This document shows, in pieces, positions 29,061-38,577 of a stretch of 64,000 nt of DNA (position 1 is the stretch's first letter; every line of letters begins with the position of its first letter). The position numbers and the translations under genes were made by a program. Source of the DNA: Rhodanobacter sp. (GTDB lineage: Bacteria; Pseudomonadota; Gammaproteobacteria; Xanthomonadales; Rhodanobacteraceae). A model generated the notes under the pieces. It saw only the letters and a list, made by a program, of their open reading frames with translations, searched no databases and had not been told where the DNA came from. The stretch covers positions 124,001-188,000 of the forward strand of contig JANJTA010000032.1 of assembly GCA_024711345.1 (NCBI GenBank), given 5' to 3'.

Positions 29061-29083
29061 GCGCCCATCAGCGCTGGCACAGG

Positions 29084-29109
29084 AAAACGGCGCCCTCGGG
29101 CGCCGTTTT
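29084..29109. terminator. bidirectional terminator between glutaredoxin and beta-hydroxylase genes
   Basis: Perfect 12-bp stem, AAAACGGCGCCC pairing with GGGCGCCGTTTT around a two-base centre. A-run on the left and T-run on the right make it active for both converging genes. Confidence 0.85.
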
Positions 29110-29132
29110 CGCTGGACCCGAGGCGGCGCCGA

Positions 29133-30458
29133 TCAGGCCGCGTCGGCAGGCAGTTCGCACGACGCGTTGAAGTCACCGATGGCCTCGACCAGGTCGGTGA
29201 CCGCGGCCTGCTCCGCCTCGCTCAGGTCGGGGTTCCAGCTGTCCAGGATCAGCACCACGCGAGTGAACGGGCTGCGGTTCCAGGCCTCGTGCTCGAAGGT
29301 GTCGTCGAACGTGACGCAACTCCCCTCGCGCCAGGAGTGGATCTGCCCGCCCACTTGCAGCGCACAGTCGGACGGCACGATCAGCGGCAGATGGGTGACC
29401 AGGCGGGTATTGGTCACGCCGCGGTGCGGCAGGATATGGGTGCCCGGGCGCAATACCGAGAACAGCGCCTCCGGCGCATGGTCGCGGATGCGCACCAGCG
29501 GCACCGCGTCCAGCACGGCGCTGGTGCGCGGACAGGCGGCGCAGTGATCGTCGTAGCGGTCGCCGTGGCGATGGAAGAAGTAGGCATCCCACGCGGCGGC
29601 ATAGCCATCGGACCCGCGCAGCATCGACTGCGCCAGGGCGGGATCGTCCACGCCGAGGAAGGATTCCAGCACCTGCTCGCCGGCCAGCACGGCCAGCAGC
29701 TCTTCGCGTATCGCCGCGGTGGCCGCTTCCAGCGTCTCGTGCCAGGGGAAGCGCTCGCGCGGGTAGAACGGCTGGCTGGGGACGTCGGGGAAGTAGAGGA
29801 ACAGCGGACGCTGGCGCGGATCGATCGAGGGCATCGGCTCCAGCCCGAGATGAATCGCCAGCGCCCGATCCACGCGGTGCAGTTCCGACCGACCGTAGCG
29901 CTCGCGCAGCGGCTCCAGCGCGGCGTCGAACAACCGCCGGCGTCCGGCGTTGGCATAGTTCATCGCATACTTCACCAGCTCGCGCAGGCCCGGCGCGGTG
30001 GTGGCGTCGTTGAGCCAGCGGCCCTGCTCCTGCGCGCTGCGCACGGCCATGAAGTAGGCGGTCAGCGCCTGCTCCGCCCGCCCCAGCTGTTCCAGCGCGA
30101 TGCCCAGCCGCAAGCGCGCCAGGAACATGCGCGGCGCCGCCGCCAGGGCGCGCTGCAGGTGGCTGGCGGCGGCCTCGAAGTCGCCGCTGGCAAGATGCAC
30201 GCTGCCCAGCTGGTGAGCCACGCCGGGATGATCGGGATGCGCCCGCTCGGCCCGGTTCAACAGCAGTATCGCCTGCGGCACGTTGCGCCGCGCCAGCTCG
30301 CGGTCGGCCAGAAAGACCAGCGCGTCGGCGTCATCGGGCTCGTGCTCGAGCAATTGCCGACAGGAGGATTCCGCCGCCGCCATCTGCCCGCCCTGCAACT
30401 GCGCGCGAACGGCCTCCCGCAATGACGACACGGGGTCGGGCGTAGGGGAAACGCTCAT
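29133..30458 (-). CDS. TPR-containing aspartyl/asparaginyl beta-hydroxylase
   Basis: 441 residues from the ATG at 30458 (GGAG nine bases upstream). The first ~150 residues are TPR helices (ESSCRQLLEHEPDDADALVFLADRELARR... and two more units). The C-terminal ~200 are an AspH-type Fe(II)/2-oxoglutarate domain: iron ligand His ~345 in ILPHRGVTN, then LVTHLPLIVP, WREGSCVTFDD, and second His ~390 in FEHEAWN. No membrane anchor or signal peptide, unlike lipid-A hydroxylase LpxO, so a protein or peptide substrate bound through the TPRs is more likely (inference). Divergent from the first sulfotransferase, 117 bp away. Confidence 0.88.
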   Translation of the reverse strand: MSVSPTPDPVSSLREAVRAQLQGGQMAAAESSCRQLLEHEPDDADALVFLADRELARRNVPQAILLLNRAERAHPDHPGVAHQLGSVHLASGDFEAAASHLQRALAAAPRMFLARLRLGIALEQLGRAEQALTAYFMAVRSAQEQGRWLNDATTAPGLRELVKYAMNYANAGRRRLFDAALEPLRERYGRSELHRVDRALAIHLGLEPMPSIDPRQRPLFLYFPDVPSQPFYPRERFPWHETLEAATAAIREELLAVLAGEQVLESFLGVDDPALAQSMLRGSDGYAAAWDAYFFHRHGDRYDDHCAACPRTSAVLDAVPLVRIRDHAPEALFSVLRPGTHILPHRGVTNTRLVTHLPLIVPSDCALQVGGQIHSWREGSCVTFDDTFEHEAWNRSPFTRVVLILDSWNPDLSEAEQAAVTDLVEAIGDFNASCELPADAA

Positions 30459-30524
30459 CAATGGTGCTCCGCGGGTTGTGCCATGCCACTGCCACGCGCG
30501 TGAAGCGGGCTGCGGTCGAGCAGG

Positions 30525-30530
30525 CATAAT
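30525..30530 (+). promoter_or_regulatory. possible -10 element for the sulfotransferase pair
   Basis: CATAAT, one of the few AT-rich hexamers in the 117-bp divergent region, about 45 bases before the ATG at 30576. The -35 region is poorly matched. Tentative. Confidence 0.3.
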
Positions 30531-30575
30531 AGCCGTTCGCGGCGCTGCCGCGCCCATCACCCTGACGGAGCCCGG

Positions 30576-32153
30576 ATGTCGGCACGACTGCATGGCCTCA
30601 CCCCCGACCTGACGCGCGCCGTGTCCGCCGTCGCGCGGGCACTCGACGACGGCCGCCTCGATGTCGCGACCGCACGCATGGCGCCGCTGCTCGCCGGCCA
30701 GCCCGACCACCCCGAAGTGCAGCGCCTGCACGCCGGCATCCTGGGCATACAGGGGCGCCACCAGGAGGCCATCGCGCTGATGCGGACAGCGCTCGCCAAT
30801 CACCCGGACGACCCGGTCTACCTCAACACGCTGGCCACCCTGCTCGGCCAGGCCGGCGAGTTCGACGGCGCCATCGATGTCCTGCGCACCGCCTGCCGGC
30901 TGCAGCCGGACATGGCGCTGGCCTGGTACAACCTCGGCGTCATGCTGACCCGCAGCGTGCGCAACGACGAAGCCGAGGCCGCCCTGCGCAGAGCGGTGGA
31001 ACTCGACCCGCAGGCTACCGACGCACGCGCGCTGCGGGCCGACATGCTGCGCATGCGCGGACAACCGGCCGAGGCCGCCGCCGAGTACCGGCGCGTGCTG
31101 GCCGAACGGGCATGGGCCGGCATGGCGTGGTGGGGGCTGGCCGACCTCAAGACCCTGCGCATGAGCGAGGCCGACGTCGCCGCCATGCAGGCCGCGCTGC
31201 GCGAACCGCGCGCCACCGACGACGACCGCATCGCGATCGGCTTCGCGCTCGCACGCGCGCTGGACGATCAGGGGCGCTATGCCGAATCGCTGCAGGCGAT
31301 CGCCGCGGCGAACACCATCGCGCGGCGGCGCCAGCAGTGGAACGCCGCGGGCTATTCGACGGCGATCGACGCGCTGGCGGCGGCCTTCGATCCACCACCG
31401 GCAGGCGCGGACGAGCCCGACCTCGGCCACGAGGTGATCTTCATCGTCGGCCTGCCGCGCTCCGGTTCCACCCTCGCCGAGCAGATCCTCGCCTCGCATC
31501 CGCAGGTGGAAGGCACCGGCGAGCTGCCGGATCTGCCGCAGGTGCTGGCCGAGGAATCGCGCCGGCGCGGGCAGCCGTTCCCGCGCTGGGTGCCGCACAT
31601 GCAGCCGGCCGACTGGTCGCGACTGGGTCGTCGCTACCTCGAACGCACGGCGCACTGGCGCGAACGCCGCCCGCGCTTCACCGACAAGCTGCCGAGCAAC
31701 TGGATCTACGCCGAAGCGATTCGCGCCATGCTGCCGGGGGCGCGCATCGTCGGTTGCCGCCGCGACGCGCTGGAGACGTGTTTTTCCTGCTATCGCCAGC
31801 GCCTGGACAACAACGAGTACAGCCGCGACTTCGGCGACCTGGCCAGTTTCTGGCGCGACTGCGACCGCAGCCTGCAGCGGCTCGCCGCACGCCATCCACA
31901 GGCGGTGCTGCTGCACGACTACGAGGCGCTGCTGGCCGAGCCGGAAGCGCGCATCCGCGCCTTGCTGGATTTCTGCGCTCTGCCGTTCGACCCGGCCTGC
32001 CTGCGGTTCCATGAGAACCCCCGCGAGGTGCGCTCGCCCAGCGCCGGCCAGGTGCGTCAGCCGCTGCGCGGCGACACCGCGCACAGCACGCGCTACGGCG
32101 CCCTGCTCGACCCGCTGCGCACGGCGCTCGGCCTGCCGCCCTGGCAGGCCTGA
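30576..32153 (+). CDS. TPR-repeat sulfotransferase (first of three)
   Basis: 525 residues. Residues ~20-270 are TPR units (DHPEVQRLHAGILGIQGRHQEAI, DPVYLNTLATLLGQAGEFDGAI, MALAWYNLGVMLTRSVRNDEAE...). The sulfotransferase domain starts ~286 with the PAPS 5'-phosphosulfate loop VGLPRSGSTL (291-300); the 3'-phosphate site is IVGCRRDALETCFS (Arg ~395-396, Ser ~404). No signal peptide, so it acts in the cytoplasm where PAPS is made. TPR-sulfotransferases include tyrosylprotein-type enzymes; the substrate here is not known. 19 bp before the next sulfotransferase: an operon. Confidence 0.9.
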   Translation: MSARLHGLTPDLTRAVSAVARALDDGRLDVATARMAPLLAGQPDHPEVQRLHAGILGIQGRHQEAIALMRTALANHPDDPVYLNTLATLLGQAGEFDGAIDVLRTACRLQPDMALAWYNLGVMLTRSVRNDEAEAALRRAVELDPQATDARALRADMLRMRGQPAEAAAEYRRVLAERAWAGMAWWGLADLKTLRMSEADVAAMQAALREPRATDDDRIAIGFALARALDDQGRYAESLQAIAAANTIARRRQQWNAAGYSTAIDALAAAFDPPPAGADEPDLGHEVIFIVGLPRSGSTLAEQILASHPQVEGTGELPDLPQVLAEESRRRGQPFPRWVPHMQPADWSRLGRRYLERTAHWRERRPRFTDKLPSNWIYAEAIRAMLPGARIVGCRRDALETCFSCYRQRLDNNEYSRDFGDLASFWRDCDRSLQRLAARHPQAVLLHDYEALLAEPEARIRALLDFCALPFDPACLRFHENPREVRSPSAGQVRQPLRGDTAHSTRYGALLDPLRTALGLPPWQA

Positions 32154-32172
32154 GCACATCGCACGCCAGCCC

Positions 32173-33720
32173 ATGACACCGACCATGCCTGCACCTGCGG
32201 ATGAGCAGCTGGCGCTGCAAGCCGCGCAGGCACAGGTACTGCGCGGCGAGGTGGCGGCGGCGGCGAGCACGCTGGAGGCGGCCGTCGCCGCGCATCCCGA
32301 TTCCGACGAGCTGGCGCTGGCGCTTGCCGGCCTCGCGATCCAGCGCGGCGATCGGGCTGGCGCCGAACGACGCCTGCGCGGCATCCTGCAGCGCACGCCG
32401 GGCCATCTGCCCACTGCCTTCGTGCTGGCGCGTCTGCTGCGCGAGCAGGGCCGGATGATGGCCGCCGGCGAGGTCCTGACCGGCGCCTGCACGGCCGGGA
32501 CCGTCAGCATGGAGCAGCGGATCGCCGCGGTGGAGTTGCTCGACGACTGCGGGCGCCAGGCGCAGGCGCTCCAGCTGTGCACGGACGCCTTCGCCCACGG
32601 CTTCGACGACCCCCGCCTGCGCGCACACGCCGGCGCGCTGGCCTCGCAACTGGGGCGTTTCGACGAGGCCCGCCTGCATCAGCAGGCGGCGCTGGCCGGC
32701 AGCCCGCTGGCGCTGGAATGGCATGTCCCGCTGGGCCTGGCTGGCCTGCAGCGATACCGCGACCGCCAGCATCCGGATCTCGCGCTGTTCGAACAGTACC
32801 TGGCGCGCAACGACCTGAGTCCGCACGCGCGCAGCGGCCTGCTGTTCGCGCTGGGCAAGGCCTGCGACGATCTCGGCGAACATGCCCGTGCCGCCGCGGC
32901 CTGGGCCGGGGCCAACCGCCTCGTGCGCGAGCGGCAGCCCTGGAACCGCAAGGCATGGCGGCGCAGCGTGGAAATGCGCCTGGCGCGACCGGCGCCGGCT
33001 GCCCTGCCAGCAGGAGGCCATGCCTGGACGCCGGTCTTCATCGTGGGCATGCCGCGATCCGGCAGCACGTTGCTGGCCGAACAGCTGGCCCGGCACCCGG
33101 AGGTACGGCATCGCGGCGAGCTGCCCTGGCTACCGACGCTGGCAGCGCGTCTGGACGCCATCGCTTCGGAGCGCGAACGTGCCGCGCAGATGCCGCTGGC
33201 CGCCGCGGCCTACGCCGCCCAGCTGGTGCAGGACGATGCCCCCGCGCGCTGGTACATCGACAAGCAGCCGCACAACGACATGCACGTGGACCTGATCCTC
33301 GCGCTGTTCCCGCAGGCGCGGGTGATCCACTGCCGCCGCAACACCCGCGACAACGCGCTCTCGCTGTGGATGCAGTCGTTCCATCCCGGTACGCAGGACT
33401 TTGCCTTCGATTTCGCCGACATCGCGGCGGTCATCCACGGCAAGCGGCGGCTGATGACGCACTGGCTACGGCGTTACCCGAACGCCGTGCGCGAAGTGCG
33501 TTATGAAGACCTGGTCGCCGACCCCGCGGCCTGCATCGGTGCCCTGGCCGAGTGGCTCGGCTTGCCCGCTTCCACGCCGCCCGCGGTGCCCGGCCAGGAA
33601 CGCGCCATCAGCACGGCGAGCCTGTGGCAGGCACGCCAGCCGGTGCACTCCCGCTCGGTGCAGCGCTGGCGCGCCTACGCGACGCTGCTGCCGGAGCTTG
33701 CCCGGATGACGGACGACTGA
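32173..33720 (+). CDS. TPR-repeat sulfotransferase (second of three)
   Basis: 515 residues from the ATG at 32173. Same architecture as the preceding gene: TPR-like helices (~10-250), PAPS loop VGMPRSGSTL at 291-300, then IDKQPHN and the 3'-phosphate motif VIHCRRNTRDNALSLW at ~384-399. The loops sit at the same residue numbers as in its neighbour, suggesting tandem duplication, but the TPR halves have diverged strongly, so substrates may differ. The stop codon is 3 bp from the end of the convergent third sulfotransferase gene. Confidence 0.9.
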   Translation: MTPTMPAPADEQLALQAAQAQVLRGEVAAAASTLEAAVAAHPDSDELALALAGLAIQRGDRAGAERRLRGILQRTPGHLPTAFVLARLLREQGRMMAAGEVLTGACTAGTVSMEQRIAAVELLDDCGRQAQALQLCTDAFAHGFDDPRLRAHAGALASQLGRFDEARLHQQAALAGSPLALEWHVPLGLAGLQRYRDRQHPDLALFEQYLARNDLSPHARSGLLFALGKACDDLGEHARAAAAWAGANRLVRERQPWNRKAWRRSVEMRLARPAPAALPAGGHAWTPVFIVGMPRSGSTLLAEQLARHPEVRHRGELPWLPTLAARLDAIASERERAAQMPLAAAAYAAQLVQDDAPARWYIDKQPHNDMHVDLILALFPQARVIHCRRNTRDNALSLWMQSFHPGTQDFAFDFADIAAVIHGKRRLMTHWLRRYPNAVREVRYEDLVADPAACIGALAEWLGLPASTPPAVPGQERAISTASLWQARQPVHSRSVQRWRAYATLLPELARMTDD

Positions 33721-33723
33721 GGA

Positions 33724-35553
33724 TCAGCCGTCCGCGGACTCGTCGGCGTCGGCGACCGAATAGCCCCAGTGCCGCAGCATCGGATCGAGAATCGGCAGCG
33801 CCGGCGCCAGCGCCTCGCGGTAACGCTTCCAGCGATCGAGCCCCTTGCGGTTGACCGGCTGGGTGACCTGCGTATAGCTGGGCGTGGCGATGAAGCCCTT
33901 GTCGCGTGCATGGCGATCGAAATGCAGCAGCGGCGTGGCGTCCTCCAGGCCGAGGAAATCGGCGATGCGCCGCGTCTGTGCGGCCGGGTCGGCCACCAGA
34001 TCCTCGTAGCGGGAAACGAACACGTTCGGCTGGAACAGCGCCACGTCGTGCAGCCAGCATTCCATCGCGGTCACGTAGGCGGTTGCCAGCTTCTCCATCG
34101 AGGCGCACGCCACCGCCAGCACGGCGGCGCGGAAGTTCTGCATGTAGTTGCTGACCAGCACGTCGCACGGGTGGCGCAGGGCGAGGATGAATTTCGCCTC
34201 GGGAAACAGGCGATAGATCAGCGGCAGCCACAGCATGTTCAGCGGATTCTTGTCGACCAGCTGCGCGCTCCAGCGCCGCCGGATCTTCGAGCAGACCAGG
34301 CTCACGTAGCCCTTGCGCAATTCGTCGCATGCATGCTGGTCGAGCTTGTACAGATCCTGCGGCACCACGATGCCGTGGTCGGCCAGCTGGTCGGAAAGGA
34401 TCGTGAAGAACGGCCGCTCGTCCATCGACTGCAGCGCCGGGTGGGCGTCGAGCATCAGTTCCAGCAGCGTCGTGCCCGAGCGCGGGTAGCCCACGATGAA
34501 CACCGGCGAGCTCGCGCTGTCCGGACTCTGCAGTACGGGCCAGCGCCGGAACTCCTCCGCCTCGATGCGTTCCACCGCGGCCGGAAGCACCGGCAACGCG
34601 GGATCGAAGCGACGCGGCACGTTGTGCTTCAGCTCCTCGATCTGGCGCGCATGCGCCTCGTGCAGCGCGGCGATCGCACCGGGGTAATCGCGCAGCTTGT
34701 CGCAGGCGTCGGCCAGGGAGAAGAAATGCGCATAGTCGTCGGGTGTGCGCGGCCCCACCTGCTCGAGCAGCCGCCGTGCCTGTTCGGTTTGCCCGCGCCG
34801 CAACGCCAGCTTCGCGCGCTGGTGGGCGATCTCCAGCTGCGCCTCGGCATCCAGCGCCGGATGATCGTGCTCCACCTGGTCGAGCAGCGCCGCGCTGCCG
34901 TCGAGGTCGTTGACGCGTTCATAGACCGCGGCCAGCAACAGACGCGCCGGCAGATGGCCGGGCGTGCGTGCCAGCAGTTCCTCCAGCAGTACGCGGGCGA
35001 TGTTCGCCTCGCCGAGTGTCAGCTGCAGGTCGGCCAGTTCCAGCTGCAGCGGATCGTCCAGCGCGGTCCAGTCGCGCCAGGGGCGCAGCAGCTCCTCCGC
35101 GCGCGAATCGCGGCAGGCCGAACAGGCGCGCGCGGCATGAATGCGTATGGCCGGCGATGCCGGGTCCAGCGCGTGGGCGCGCAGCAAGGTATCGCGGGCG
35201 ACCTGGTAGTCCTTACGTTCGAGCTGCAACAGGCCCAGGTTGGTCAGCTGCTCCCCGTTGTCTGGCGCCAGTTCGATCGAACGTCGGTAAGCGTCCTCGG
35301 CTTCCTGTACGCGCCCCGCCTCGCGCAACGCGGTGGCGTAATTGCCCCAGTGCAGCGAGTCGTCGGGATGGTTTTGCGCCAGCGCAGCATAAATCTCCAG
35401 CGCTTCGGCCAGGCGGCCCTGCTGCTGCAGGCCGATCGCCAGAAACAAGGTGAGGTCGGGATCGTCGGGGCGCTCCGCCAGGGCAACTCGGGAAAGGCGC
35501 TCCACCTCGGCCGGTCGGCCGCCCTGCAGGGCGCTGAGAATGTCGTTGATCAC
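33724..35553 (-). CDS. TPR-repeat sulfotransferase (third of three)
   Basis: 609 residues from a GTG at 35553. An in-frame TTG at 35571 exists, but it lies inside the U-tract of the upstream terminator and has no ribosome site. At least seven TPR-like units fill ~10-300 (LTLFLAIGLQQQGRLAEALEIY, LHWGNYATALREAGRVQEAED...). The PAPS loop VGYPRSGTTL lies at ~354-363, with LVDKNPLN and ALRHPCDVLVSNY behind it. It follows the TonB receptor gene on the same strand, 84 bp away, so it may be expressed by read-through. Confidence 0.9.
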   Translation of the reverse strand: MINDILSALQGGRPAEVERLSRVALAERPDDPDLTLFLAIGLQQQGRLAEALEIYAALAQNHPDDSLHWGNYATALREAGRVQEAEDAYRRSIELAPDNGEQLTNLGLLQLERKDYQVARDTLLRAHALDPASPAIRIHAARACSACRDSRAEELLRPWRDWTALDDPLQLELADLQLTLGEANIARVLLEELLARTPGHLPARLLLAAVYERVNDLDGSAALLDQVEHDHPALDAEAQLEIAHQRAKLALRRGQTEQARRLLEQVGPRTPDDYAHFFSLADACDKLRDYPGAIAALHEAHARQIEELKHNVPRRFDPALPVLPAAVERIEAEEFRRWPVLQSPDSASSPVFIVGYPRSGTTLLELMLDAHPALQSMDERPFFTILSDQLADHGIVVPQDLYKLDQHACDELRKGYVSLVCSKIRRRWSAQLVDKNPLNMLWLPLIYRLFPEAKFILALRHPCDVLVSNYMQNFRAAVLAVACASMEKLATAYVTAMECWLHDVALFQPNVFVSRYEDLVADPAAQTRRIADFLGLEDATPLLHFDRHARDKGFIATPSYTQVTQPVNRKGLDRWKRYREALAPALPILDPMLRHWGYSVADADESADG

Positions 35554-35569
35554 GTGAGAGGTACTATCC

Positions 35570-35604
35570 AAAAAAAAGAGCCGCGCGGGTTGCCCGCGCG
35601 GCTC
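35570..35604 (-). terminator. strong intrinsic terminator after the TonB receptor gene
   Basis: Perfect 12-bp stem (GAGCCGCGCGGG with its complement, three-base loop) followed on the minus strand by eight uridines. It sits 33 bp after the receptor's stop codon and its U-tract ends 16 bp before the sulfotransferase GTG, so most receptor transcripts should end here and a fraction read on. Confidence 0.9.
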
Positions 35605-35637
35605 GTCAGCTTCAGCTACTCAGTGCTGTCCAGTCAA

Positions 35638-38577
35638 TCAGAACGACACCGTCACGCGAGCCCAGTAGTAGCGGCCCTGCAGATCGAAGTCGCTCGGATC
35701 GGTGTTGGCGTTGAGCGTGTTGTTGGCGTAGAGCATCGGCGGCTGCTTGTCGAACAGGTTGTTCACGCCCAGATCGATACGGGTGTTGAGCGGCTCGAAG
35801 TTGTAGCCGATCGACACGTCGTTGTAGATCGTCGAACCGTACTTGAACTCCACGCCCGGCAGGCCCTGCACCGGGTTCGTGTCCTGCGACGGGCTCTTCG
35901 AGCCGTTGCGGAACGCACCGATGTAGCGCATGCGCCAGGAAGCGCTCCAGTCGCCCAGGTTCCAGTTCACGAAGCCGTTGCCGCGCCAGCGCGGGAACAG
36001 GCACACGCCGCCGCCGCTGGGGCAGGTCGACGCCTGGCTGGAGCCGAACGGCATGAAGTGGCCGGCATCGTGGAACACCGTATTGGCATCGGTACCCGGC
36101 GCGGTCTGCTGGTCATAGCGCGACATGTAGGTCGCATCCAGACCGACCACGAACTTGCCGAACGAGAACTCCGGCAGGCTGTAGCGACCGGAGAAGTCGA
36201 CACCCGCCACGTCCGTGCGGCCCAGGTTGCCGGTCGGCTCGATGATCTGCGCGATCTGGCCGGGGTTGGCGCTGCCGGTCGGGAAGCGGGTGATCAGCGG
36301 GCAATACTGGCTGACGCCGGCGTAGCACAGGTCGAGCACGGTCTGCGCGCCGATCGAGGAGATCGTGTCGTTCAGGTACAGGTGCCACACGTCGGCACTG
36401 AGCGACAGCCCCGGCACGTAGCTCGGCGAGTAGACGAAGCCGACGTCGAACGACTTGCCCTTCTCCGGCCCGAGCGGGAACCCGGCGTACTGCGAGCCGG
36501 AGGAAATGCCCTTGATCTGCTGGCCGAGCGCCACGTCCTGGTTGACGAAGCTGCCGTCGGTCGGCACGCCCACGCAGGCCGGGTTGGCGGCGGTGAGGCC
36601 GTCGCAGGGGTCGCTGCTGAGCTTCGGTGCGTCGCTGATCGGCGCGCCGAACACGTTGCCGATGGTCGGCGCACGGAACACCTCGGACACCGTGCCGCGC
36701 AGCAGCAGGTCGGTGATCGGGCGGTATTCCACCGCGAACTTGGTGTTGTTGGTGCTGCCGAAGGTGCTGTACTTCGAGTAGCGGTCACCGATGGTGATGT
36801 TCAACGCCTGCGCGAACGGCATGTCGGACAGGATCGGCACGAACACCTCGGCGTAGGCCTCCTTCACGTTGTAGCCGCCGCGCAGCGGCGACGAGCACTG
36901 GCTGCCCAGGGTGCAGTTGCCGGTGGCCGGGTCGATCAGCAGCAGCGGATCGATTTCCGAACGGGTGTATTCCTTGCGGTAGGAAGCGCCCGCGGCCAGC
37001 TGCACCGTGCCGGCCGGCAGGTCGAACAGGCCACCGTTGACGTCGGCCGAATAGACGCGCTGGATCGCGAAGTTGTTGCTGATCGCCGGTACCGCCGCCG
37101 CCTGCAGCGCCGCCACCGAGTTGGGGTCGAACAGGTTGAACGGGTTGAACGGCATGCAGCCGGCTGCGCCGGAATCACACACCACCTTGCCCGTGGCCGG
37201 ATCCAGATGCGACGGACCCAGGTCCGCGTTGATCTTGTCCTGGTTGGGCAGGCCGCGGGTGATGGTCTGCTGCGAGAAGTGGCCATAGCTCATGCCCACG
37301 TCCCAGTTCCAGTCGTGGTTCAGCAGGTTGAAGTCACCCTTGAACCCGGTGTGGATCTGGTCGCTGGTGGTGCCGAAGTTGGCCGAGCGGTTGCCGGCGG
37401 AGACCAGGCGCGCGCGGTAGTCCAGACCGTTCCCCGAATACTCCTGGCCGAACGGGTTGTAGTAGCTGTCGGCCGAGATCACTGCGCCGTAGATCGAACC
37501 CAGCAGGGCCGGGGCCAGCTGGAAGCCGGAGCTGGTCTTGTTGTGGTACGCGTCCATGTAGGCCTGGACGTGGTCACCGAGGTTGTAGGTGCCCTTCAGC
37601 CAGAGGCTGGTGCGTTCCTGCGGGGTCTGGATCAGGTTGACCGTCGCGTAGTTGTACTTGTCGGCGTTGGTGAAGCAGTGGTAATCGGTGGCGATGTTCT
37701 GGCCGCTGGCGCCCGGATTCAGTGCCACGTTCTTGCAGTCGTACTGTCCCGGGCCGGTACCCTGATACTGGCTCGGCAACTGGATGCGGCCGTAGGCCGG
37801 GAAGCTGGAACCGCCAACGTAGGTGTAGATCGGGGTCTGGCTGCTGCCGTAGATCGAGATCGCGTTCTTGGAGAAGTCGCGGTTCTTGGCCAGCACGGCT
37901 TCGGTCTTGTTGTAGTCGACGCCGCCCATGATGCTGCCCTTGTCGGACGTCTGGCCGAACGTGAAGGTGTAACCCTTCGAGCGGCCGTCAGCATGGGAGG
38001 ACTGGCCGTAGTTCACCGTGAACTGGGCGCCCTGGTAGTCCTTCTTCAGGATGAAGTTGACCACGCCGCCGATCGCGTCGGAGCCGTACACCGAGGAGGC
38101 GCCGTCGGTCAGCACTTCGATGCGCTCGATCATGTCGGCCGGGATCGAGTTCGGATCGCCGTTGATGATGCGCTTGCCGTCGATCAGGATCAGGGTGCGC
38201 TGGGCGCCGAGGCCACGCAGGCCGATCGAGGAGCCGCCGGTGCCGCCGCTGTTGTTGACCTGCGGGTTGATGTTGCCGCCGGTCACCGCCGGCAGCTGCT
38301 GCACGATGTCGCCCAGCGTGAGCTTGCCGGTGGCCTTGATCTGCGCGGCGTCGATGGTCACGACCGGGTTGGACGTTTCCAGGTCCACGCGGCGGATGTG
38401 CGAGCCGGTGACCACGACGGTCTGCAGTGTCTGCGCCTTTTCCTGGCTGGGCTTGCTGGTGTCCTGGCTGCCCGTGTCCTGAGCGAACACCGTGCCCGAG
38501 GCACCCACCGCGATGACCGCACCCAGCGAGAGCGCGAGGCGGACTGCTGAAGAAAGTTTTGAGACCCCAAGTTTCAT
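35638..38577 (-). CDS. TonB-dependent outer-membrane receptor
   Basis: 979 residues from the ATG at 38577, with GGAGGG ten bases upstream. Signal peptide ~1-33 (...GASGTVFAQ). A TonB-box-like TLQTVVVTGSHIRR (~49-62) leads to the plug domain (QLPAVTGGNINPQ, RTLILIDGKRI, IERIEVLTDGASSVYGSDAIGGVVNFILKK). The remaining ~750 residues form the 22-strand barrel, ending in ARVTVSF with the terminal Phe needed for BAM assembly. It belongs to the large Xanthomonadales/Caulobacter receptor class that imports sugars, peptides or siderophores; the ligand is not readable. It leads the minus-strand unit with the third sulfotransferase. Confidence 0.93.
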   Translation of the reverse strand: MKLGVSKLSSAVRLALSLGAVIAVGASGTVFAQDTGSQDTSKPSQEKAQTLQTVVVTGSHIRRVDLETSNPVVTIDAAQIKATGKLTLGDIVQQLPAVTGGNINPQVNNSGGTGGSSIGLRGLGAQRTLILIDGKRIINGDPNSIPADMIERIEVLTDGASSVYGSDAIGGVVNFILKKDYQGAQFTVNYGQSSHADGRSKGYTFTFGQTSDKGSIMGGVDYNKTEAVLAKNRDFSKNAISIYGSSQTPIYTYVGGSSFPAYGRIQLPSQYQGTGPGQYDCKNVALNPGASGQNIATDYHCFTNADKYNYATVNLIQTPQERTSLWLKGTYNLGDHVQAYMDAYHNKTSSGFQLAPALLGSIYGAVISADSYYNPFGQEYSGNGLDYRARLVSAGNRSANFGTTSDQIHTGFKGDFNLLNHDWNWDVGMSYGHFSQQTITRGLPNQDKINADLGPSHLDPATGKVVCDSGAAGCMPFNPFNLFDPNSVAALQAAAVPAISNNFAIQRVYSADVNGGLFDLPAGTVQLAAGASYRKEYTRSEIDPLLLIDPATGNCTLGSQCSSPLRGGYNVKEAYAEVFVPILSDMPFAQALNITIGDRYSKYSTFGSTNNTKFAVEYRPITDLLLRGTVSEVFRAPTIGNVFGAPISDAPKLSSDPCDGLTAANPACVGVPTDGSFVNQDVALGQQIKGISSGSQYAGFPLGPEKGKSFDVGFVYSPSYVPGLSLSADVWHLYLNDTISSIGAQTVLDLCYAGVSQYCPLITRFPTGSANPGQIAQIIEPTGNLGRTDVAGVDFSGRYSLPEFSFGKFVVGLDATYMSRYDQQTAPGTDANTVFHDAGHFMPFGSSQASTCPSGGGVCLFPRWRGNGFVNWNLGDWSASWRMRYIGAFRNGSKSPSQDTNPVQGLPGVEFKYGSTIYNDVSIGYNFEPLNTRIDLGVNNLFDKQPPMLYANNTLNANTDPSDFDLQGRYYWARVTVSF

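Follow-up and report, generated by a model that had tools for sequence, protein, structure and literature searches.

Predicted TPR-fused sulfotransferases and a β-hydroxylase tied to a TonB-dependent receptor in Rhodanobacter

To our knowledge, protein tyrosine sulfation in bacteria is known essentially from RaxST. A study of this Xanthomonas enzyme describes it as a tyrosylprotein sulfotransferase (TPST), modelled there on TPST2, that acts on a 60-residue secreted peptide (PMC6637879). The raxX-raxSTAB locus combines the RaxX precursor with a type I exporter. Here, we analyse an island of five intact genes at positions 29133-38577 of a 64,000-nucleotide stretch of Rhodanobacter sp. DNA (the window), which comprises a putative aspartyl/asparaginyl β-hydroxylase (AspH), three putative sulfotransferases (ST1, ST2 and ST3), the last of them likewise TPST-like, and a TonB-dependent receptor (TBDR). 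In contrast to the rax locus, the island holds a TonB receptor and enzymes fused to tetratricopeptide repeats (TPRs), and neither a peptide precursor nor an exporter was found in it.

Parts of this organization recur in other described enzymes. TPST1 and TPST2 are animal Golgi enzymes, whereas ST3 of the window carries a TPR superhelix and, by eye, no signal peptide, and is therefore presumably cytoplasmic; two substrate-side arginines of TPST are not retained in the aligned ST3. O-GlcNAc transferase (OGT) and SPINDLY likewise consist of a TPR superhelix followed by a transferase domain and were among the top Foldseek rows, with a low TM-score, but their catalytic domain is a glycosyltransferase and that of the island a sulfotransferase. 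Human AspH shares with the AspH of the window the PF05118 domain, two histidines and one arginine and the fusion of TPRs to an oxygenase; unlike it, the window enzyme is bacterial and displays no secretory signal by eye, no EGF-like client was seen, and Val354 stands at the presumed position of human Arg688. Judged from sequence, the island thus appears to link TonB receptors with enzymes of the TPST and AspH types that are fused to TPRs in the manner of OGT. A description of the combination of TPR-sulfotransferase, AspH and TonB receptor was not found in open PubMed Central, either by narrow queries or among the best-ranked matches of broader ones; PMC10017367, brought up by a narrow query, is unrelated by its title, and the terms sulfotransferase, halogenase and hydroxylase are absent from PMC1790865.

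The genes and hairpins are the following.

29133..30458, minus strand: TPR-AspH, 441 residues, N-terminal TPRs and an aspartyl/asparaginyl β-hydroxylase domain
30576..32153, plus strand: ST1, 525 residues, TPR and Sulfotransfer_3 (PF13469, E 8.7e-36)
32173..33720, plus strand: ST2, 515 residues, PF13469 (E 3.6e-39) and one weaker TPR match (TPR_19, E 2e-9)
33724..35571, minus strand: ST3, at most 615 residues, TPR superhelix and a TPST-like domain (Sulfotransfer_3, E 3.2e-37)
35638..38577, minus strand: TBDR, 979 residues, signal-peptide-like N-terminus (by eye), plug and barrel
35578..35604, minus strand: intrinsic terminator between TBDR and ST3, a perfect 12-bp stem followed by eight T
29083..29115, minus strand: hairpin region between the glutaredoxin gene and AspH (-22.3 kcal/mol, z -4.57)

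The initial annotation, made from the sequence alone, had placed a TPR-hydroxylase, three TPR-sulfotransferases and a TBDR here, and all five proved to be intact and to carry the expected Pfam domains. The island is not a single operon: AspH lies on the minus strand, ST1-ST2 on the plus strand and TBDR followed by ST3 again on the minus strand, with ST2 and ST3 converging at a distance of 3 nt. The intergenic gaps measure 3-117 nt, except for the 380 nt upstream of the TBDR gene. ST3 could start at TTG 35571 or GTG 35553, and its top named relative is from Rhodanobacter thiooxydans LCS2 (95%).

Gene order, phyletic profiles and parallel trees all tie the enzymes of the island to the receptor. 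The neighbourhood is conserved across genera, so that the initial annotation passes the refutation test that it had set itself: 11 of 17 named ST3 loci, from Rhodanobacter, Dyella, Frateuria and metagenome-assembled genomes, hold all five genes in the arrangement of the window, with ST3 identity down to 46% and with differing flanks in some. The remaining six retain the TBDR>ST3 pair; the sequence of locus L015 ends before AspH is reached, in L016 ST1/ST2 were not seen, L019 has an extra sulfotransferase and no AspH, L020 is without ST2 and AspH, and in L022 and L024 AspH is missing from its usual position. Sixty related genomes were then compared by means of the 64 best ST3 hits, all 68 AspH rows and the TBDR rows, 63 of which, at E <= 2.2e-172, were taken as clade TBDRs. 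A clade TBDR lies within 12 kb of 52 of the 64 ST3 hits; for the genus this is so in 50 of 54, and within 1 kb in 48. Conversely, an ST3-family hit is found no farther than 12 kb from 51 of the 63 clade TBDRs. The 40 AspH hits at E <= 3e-159 are all accompanied, at up to the same distance and in varying arrangements, by a hit to the ST3 family or to TBDR, as are few of the weaker AspH hits. Among 36 genomes of the genus, ST3 (E <= 1e-80) and TBDR (E <= 1e-170) occur together in 30 and are jointly missing from six; AspH was found in 27. The TBDR and ST3 distances correlate with r 0.88 over 49 pairs, a value not reached in any of 2000 permutations, and 23 of 31 well supported TBDR splits reappear in the ST3 tree; both the Fisher value for presence and absence and the Mantel value for distance ignore shared descent. 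When the open reading frames (ORFs) of 25 diverse loci were clustered, AspH, sulfotransferase and TBDR formed the three widest groups, and the next groups were apparently antisense frames.

The genome that holds the window provides further instances of the pairing. Its 3.80 Mb contain 32 Plug genes and eight Sulfotransfer_3 genes; the latter lie at six loci, four of which adjoin a TBDR, including one of Oar type and one of another family. On these counts the grouping exceeds chance. One of these genomic regions is a second AspH>TBDR>ST3 trio (L056:3208-9544, at about 239.2-245.5 kb of G000:C17), in which AspH is 62%, TBDR 39-43% and ST3 41% identical to their counterparts; no ST1/ST2 lies beside it and no terminator was found between its TBDR and ST3. 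In what follows, loci of the window's kind are called type A and AspH>TBDR>ST3 trios without ST1/ST2 type B. At L108:3621-10276 (G035:C4) an AspH signal occurs both downstream of ST3, in one frame, and upstream of TBDR, in two frames, so that this locus resembles a transitional form between both orders of the trio. The expanded islands L115:2237-17302 and L117:2675-17689 hold six sulfotransferase-like ORFs between the receptor and AspH, a single one being weak in each case, which suggests that receptors differ in how many modifying enzymes accompany them; the weak sulfotransferase-like ORFs of L069, L071, L115 and L117, with profile scores of about 120-130, may be degenerate. At L120-L127, in genomes that carry islands elsewhere, the fetched stretches contain same-clade receptors (38-59% identical) but neither AspH nor a sulfotransferase; these receptors are possibly served in trans.

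One of 20 outgroup TBDRs (34-41% identical to that of the window) has a sulfotransferase in its fetched flanks and none has an AspH; these 20 were hand-picked from the 39 rows that did not reach E 1e-165 (38 once a clade fragment is set aside), some flanks are short, and the unpicked G004:C23:25563 and G043:C12 lie near sulfotransferase hits, so that 1/20 is not a random rate. TPR-AspH at E <= 1e-50 occurs in ten of 369 genomes of the class, our own included. Of 18 AspH loci beyond the main clade (not counting L080 and L082, retrieved by way of ST3), six have a sulfotransferase and a TBDR, two a sulfotransferase only, four a TBDR only and six neither; one of the two with a sulfotransferase only is L069, whose sulfotransferase is weak, with no Pfam sulfotransferase domain. 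Sulfotransfer_3 at E <= 1e-20 was detected in 85 of 150 genomes of Pseudomonadota, and in a sample comprising the best match from each of the 40 highest-ranking of these 85 genomes, our own left out and three contigs being shorter than 5 kb, a TBDR stands beside the sulfotransferase at nine loci, with a second sulfotransferase in between at L171. The pairing spans several TBDR families, the Oar type included. At L128:7617-12763, an Oar-type receptor outside the window clade is followed by a terminator and then by an ST3 that is 59% identical to that of the window; the ST3 enzyme family can therefore pair with another receptor family.

By sequence and structure comparison, ST3 is predicted to be a sulfotransferase of the TPST type. 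TPSTs were its top sulfotransferase matches among solved structures in a phmmer search and occupied ranks 1-7 by Z in a structure comparison, a fold test that covers ST3 alone among the three sulfotransferases. R364, S474 and E385, conserved in 168, 162 and all of 169 aligned sulfotransferases, respectively, are, from the alignment, presumably the sites of binding of 3′-phosphoadenosine-5′-phosphosulfate (PAPS) and of catalysis. Residues of these three kinds, PAPS-binding Arg and Ser and a catalytic Glu, are named as essential in PMC6637879. Adenosine-5′-phosphosulfate kinase is present.

The AspH of the window matches PF05118 (Asp_Arg_Hydrox, E 3.8e-44) together with TPR_19/TPR_16, and its closest solved non-TPR relatives are AspH entries (E about 3e-27). 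His345 (54 of 56 aligned AspH sequences), His390 (55 of 56) and Arg400 (54 of 56) presumably represent the two histidines and the 2-oxoglutarate-binding arginine of the family. Membership of LpxO and OlsC, the lipid hydroxylases of the AspH superfamily, was rejected, the scores of 75.9 and 109.1 bits lying far below the respective NCBIfam cut-offs of 500 and 450. The proposal in the initial annotation of a protein-modifying set is in this respect strengthened, since among solved structures TPST comes closest to the catalytic domain of ST3, and AspH entries to that of the window's AspH.

The receptor contains a Plug domain (Pfam, E 7.1e-23). In an AlphaFold2 model (pLDDT 84.3) its closest solved folds are PfeA, PirA, Cir, FepA and BtuB, and it is accordingly predicted to be a TonB-dependent receptor with a plug and a transmembrane β-barrel.

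The terminator that separates the TBDR gene from ST3 folds at -27.8 kcal/mol (z -4.3). Among 49 TBDR>ST3 pairs, a terminator-like hairpin occurs within 150 nt after the TBDR in all 27 type A pairs and in one of 21 type B pairs; the pair of Oar-type receptor and ST3 at L128, also one of the 49, has such a hairpin after the receptor as well. The letters of the stem differ among loci, while base pairing is retained. The start codon of ST3 abuts the T run, which leaves scant room for a promoter of its own, so that ST3 probably needs read-through; no obvious ribosome-binding site was seen. Conservation of the terminator after type A receptors suggests that transcripts of the receptor gene far outnumber those of ST3. 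Terminators had initially been proposed at both outer flanks: a strong hairpin does lie on the glutaredoxin/AspH side, picked up by folding and absent from the list of a consensus terminator scan, but on the amn side the scan listed none and the stretch folds no better than its shuffles (z -0.1).

We tentatively favour, as a plausible but far from secure reading, that the island is a receptor-linked protein-modification system in the cytoplasm with the receptor precursor as its client. The chemistry of PAPS and 2-oxoglutarate is cytoplasmic, which would place the island enzymes in the compartment where the receptor is an unfolded precursor, and the recurrence of the pairing in many related bacteria suggests that the receptor may itself be chemically decorated. 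The TPR superhelix would hold the unfolded polypeptide and feed it to the C-terminal domain, as in OGT; ST1-ST3 would transfer sulfate from PAPS to side-chain hydroxyls, most likely of tyrosine, and TPR-AspH would β-hydroxylate Asp or Asn. As the client would be the precursor prior to Sec export, the receptor would arrive at the outer membrane already sulfated and hydroxylated, and the modification could alter ligand binding or hide the receptor from phages and bacteriocins. Through the terminator that follows the receptor gene, the catalyst would be produced sparingly and its client in abundance. We are more doubtful of the wider proposition that Proteobacteria decorate specific TonB receptors before export with sulfotyrosine and β-hydroxy-Asp/Asn by means of OGT-like, TPR-guided enzymes that co-diversify with the receptor. 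Such a receptor-sulfation code would parallel the sulfation of chemokine receptors in animals. If outer-membrane receptors are indeed modified in both ways in the cytoplasm, nutrient uptake and the recognition of phages and bacteriocins would gain a further, post-translational level, and a role would be found for the TPR-sulfotransferases, a large family without known function.

Several observations weigh against the receptor as client. No tyrosine is specific to sulfotransferase-linked receptors when 52 island receptors and that of the window are compared with eight unlinked clade receptors and 20 outgroup receptors, and the clade-specific Cys301, 555 and 561, Tyr310 and Tyr925 are also kept in the eight clade receptors without a neighbouring sulfotransferase. 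Acidic flanks are the usual context of TPST-modified tyrosines. Tyrosines with at least two acidic residues within three positions are fewer in sulfotransferase-adjacent TBDRs (median 3, n=70) than in nonadjacent TBDRs (median 6, n=33; p 0.02, a value that ignores phylogeny), and the receptor of the window has one. Eleven sulfotransferase-adjacent TBDRs of other families have a median of 8; with medians that run in opposite directions across families, this test is mixed, is driven by the window clade and is there of no help to the client claim. Twelve of the 63 clade TBDRs lack an ST3-family neighbour within 12 kb, although contig ends possibly explain some, and AspH is gone from three of the 30 genus genomes that keep ST3 and TBDR. 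The agreement between the TBDR and ST3 trees partly reflects the joint inheritance of adjacent genes, so that the correlation is partly trivial. Two of the six sulfotransferase loci of the own genome have no TBDR beside them, distant TPR-AspH genes often stand alone, and the stretches fetched for 31 of the 40 phylum loci yielded no TBDR ORF, where some stretches are short and the TBDR profiles may miss divergent receptors.

Instead of the receptor, the enzymes might modify a small peptide encoded elsewhere, similar to RaxX or to ribosomally synthesized and post-translationally modified peptides, that the receptor recognizes or re-imports as signal or cargo. RaxST offers a precedent for such a substrate, and the fold neighbours of the receptor include Cir bound to microcin V; on the other hand, the five genes include no exporter by Pfam, the flanking genes being named by eye, and we consider this reading rather unlikely. 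A peptide gene hidden upstream of the receptor found no support in scans of ORFs and DNA similarity: the 380-nt gap holds only contained ORFs of less than 70 residues, similarity in it beyond the closest relatives is mostly confined to two short stretches, and compact relatives leave only about 100-200 nt upstream of the TBDR. Since the genes and gaps of the island disclosed no exporter and no conserved small ORF, the small exported peptide that the initial annotation had listed among possible substrates has lost ground.

It is somewhat improbable, in our judgement, that the enzymes act on another cell-envelope or cytoplasmic protein, such as a partner of the receptor, with the receptor merely co-regulated. 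The TPST and AspH domains do indicate protein clients, the 31 phylum loci without a TBDR found beside them imply that the sulfotransferase family has other clients, and a secreted-looking protein recurs near L019, L020 and L076. Nevertheless, it is the receptor that ST3 usually accompanies, and no fourth group rivals AspH, sulfotransferase and TBDR as the widest in the 25 diverse loci. Tailoring by the enzymes of a small-molecule ligand (a siderophore, glycan or lipid) that the receptor takes up appears quite improbable. That there is no system, the genes being neighbours by history and co-inherited without shared function, is scarcely credible: conservation of the flanking genes across many loci makes part of the synteny background, but the set persists even where AspH differs in order and strand, the flanks change in L019, L020 and L013, a second trio lies elsewhere in the same genome, different TBDR families pair with TPR-sulfotransferases, and ST3 and TBDR are jointly absent from six genomes, counts by which this reading is largely refuted.

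Further enzymes occur near AspH, sulfotransferase and TBDR loci, namely small 2OG-Fe(II) oxygenases (PF13640), fusions of TPRs to 2OG-FeII_Oxy_5 (PF13759) and a methyltransferase. The oxygenases, some of them TPR-fused, were seen at L078, L079, L080 and L088, at L019, L071 and L073, and at L084:7306-9306 and L112:5361-7217; those of L019, L073, L079, L084, L088 and L112 were confirmed by Pfam and the others were recognized by similarity. The secreted-looking protein near islands, of about 300-400 residues (L019:3399-4622, L020:5501-6619 and L076:11172-12074), gave no Pfam match in the two members scanned. The neighbourhood of TBDRs and tryptophan halogenases likewise joins a receptor to a modifying enzyme, but the enzyme is a halogenase and the locus another. 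A link of this kind was rejected for the islands described here, as none was found inside them by eye at the listed places; the nearest halogenases seen lie about 9 kb from the receptor of G049:C18 and a few kb from the sulfotransferases of G007:C24. In the own genome, a TonB receptor plug is closely followed by a tryptophan-halogenase gene at G000:C4:66546-70716.
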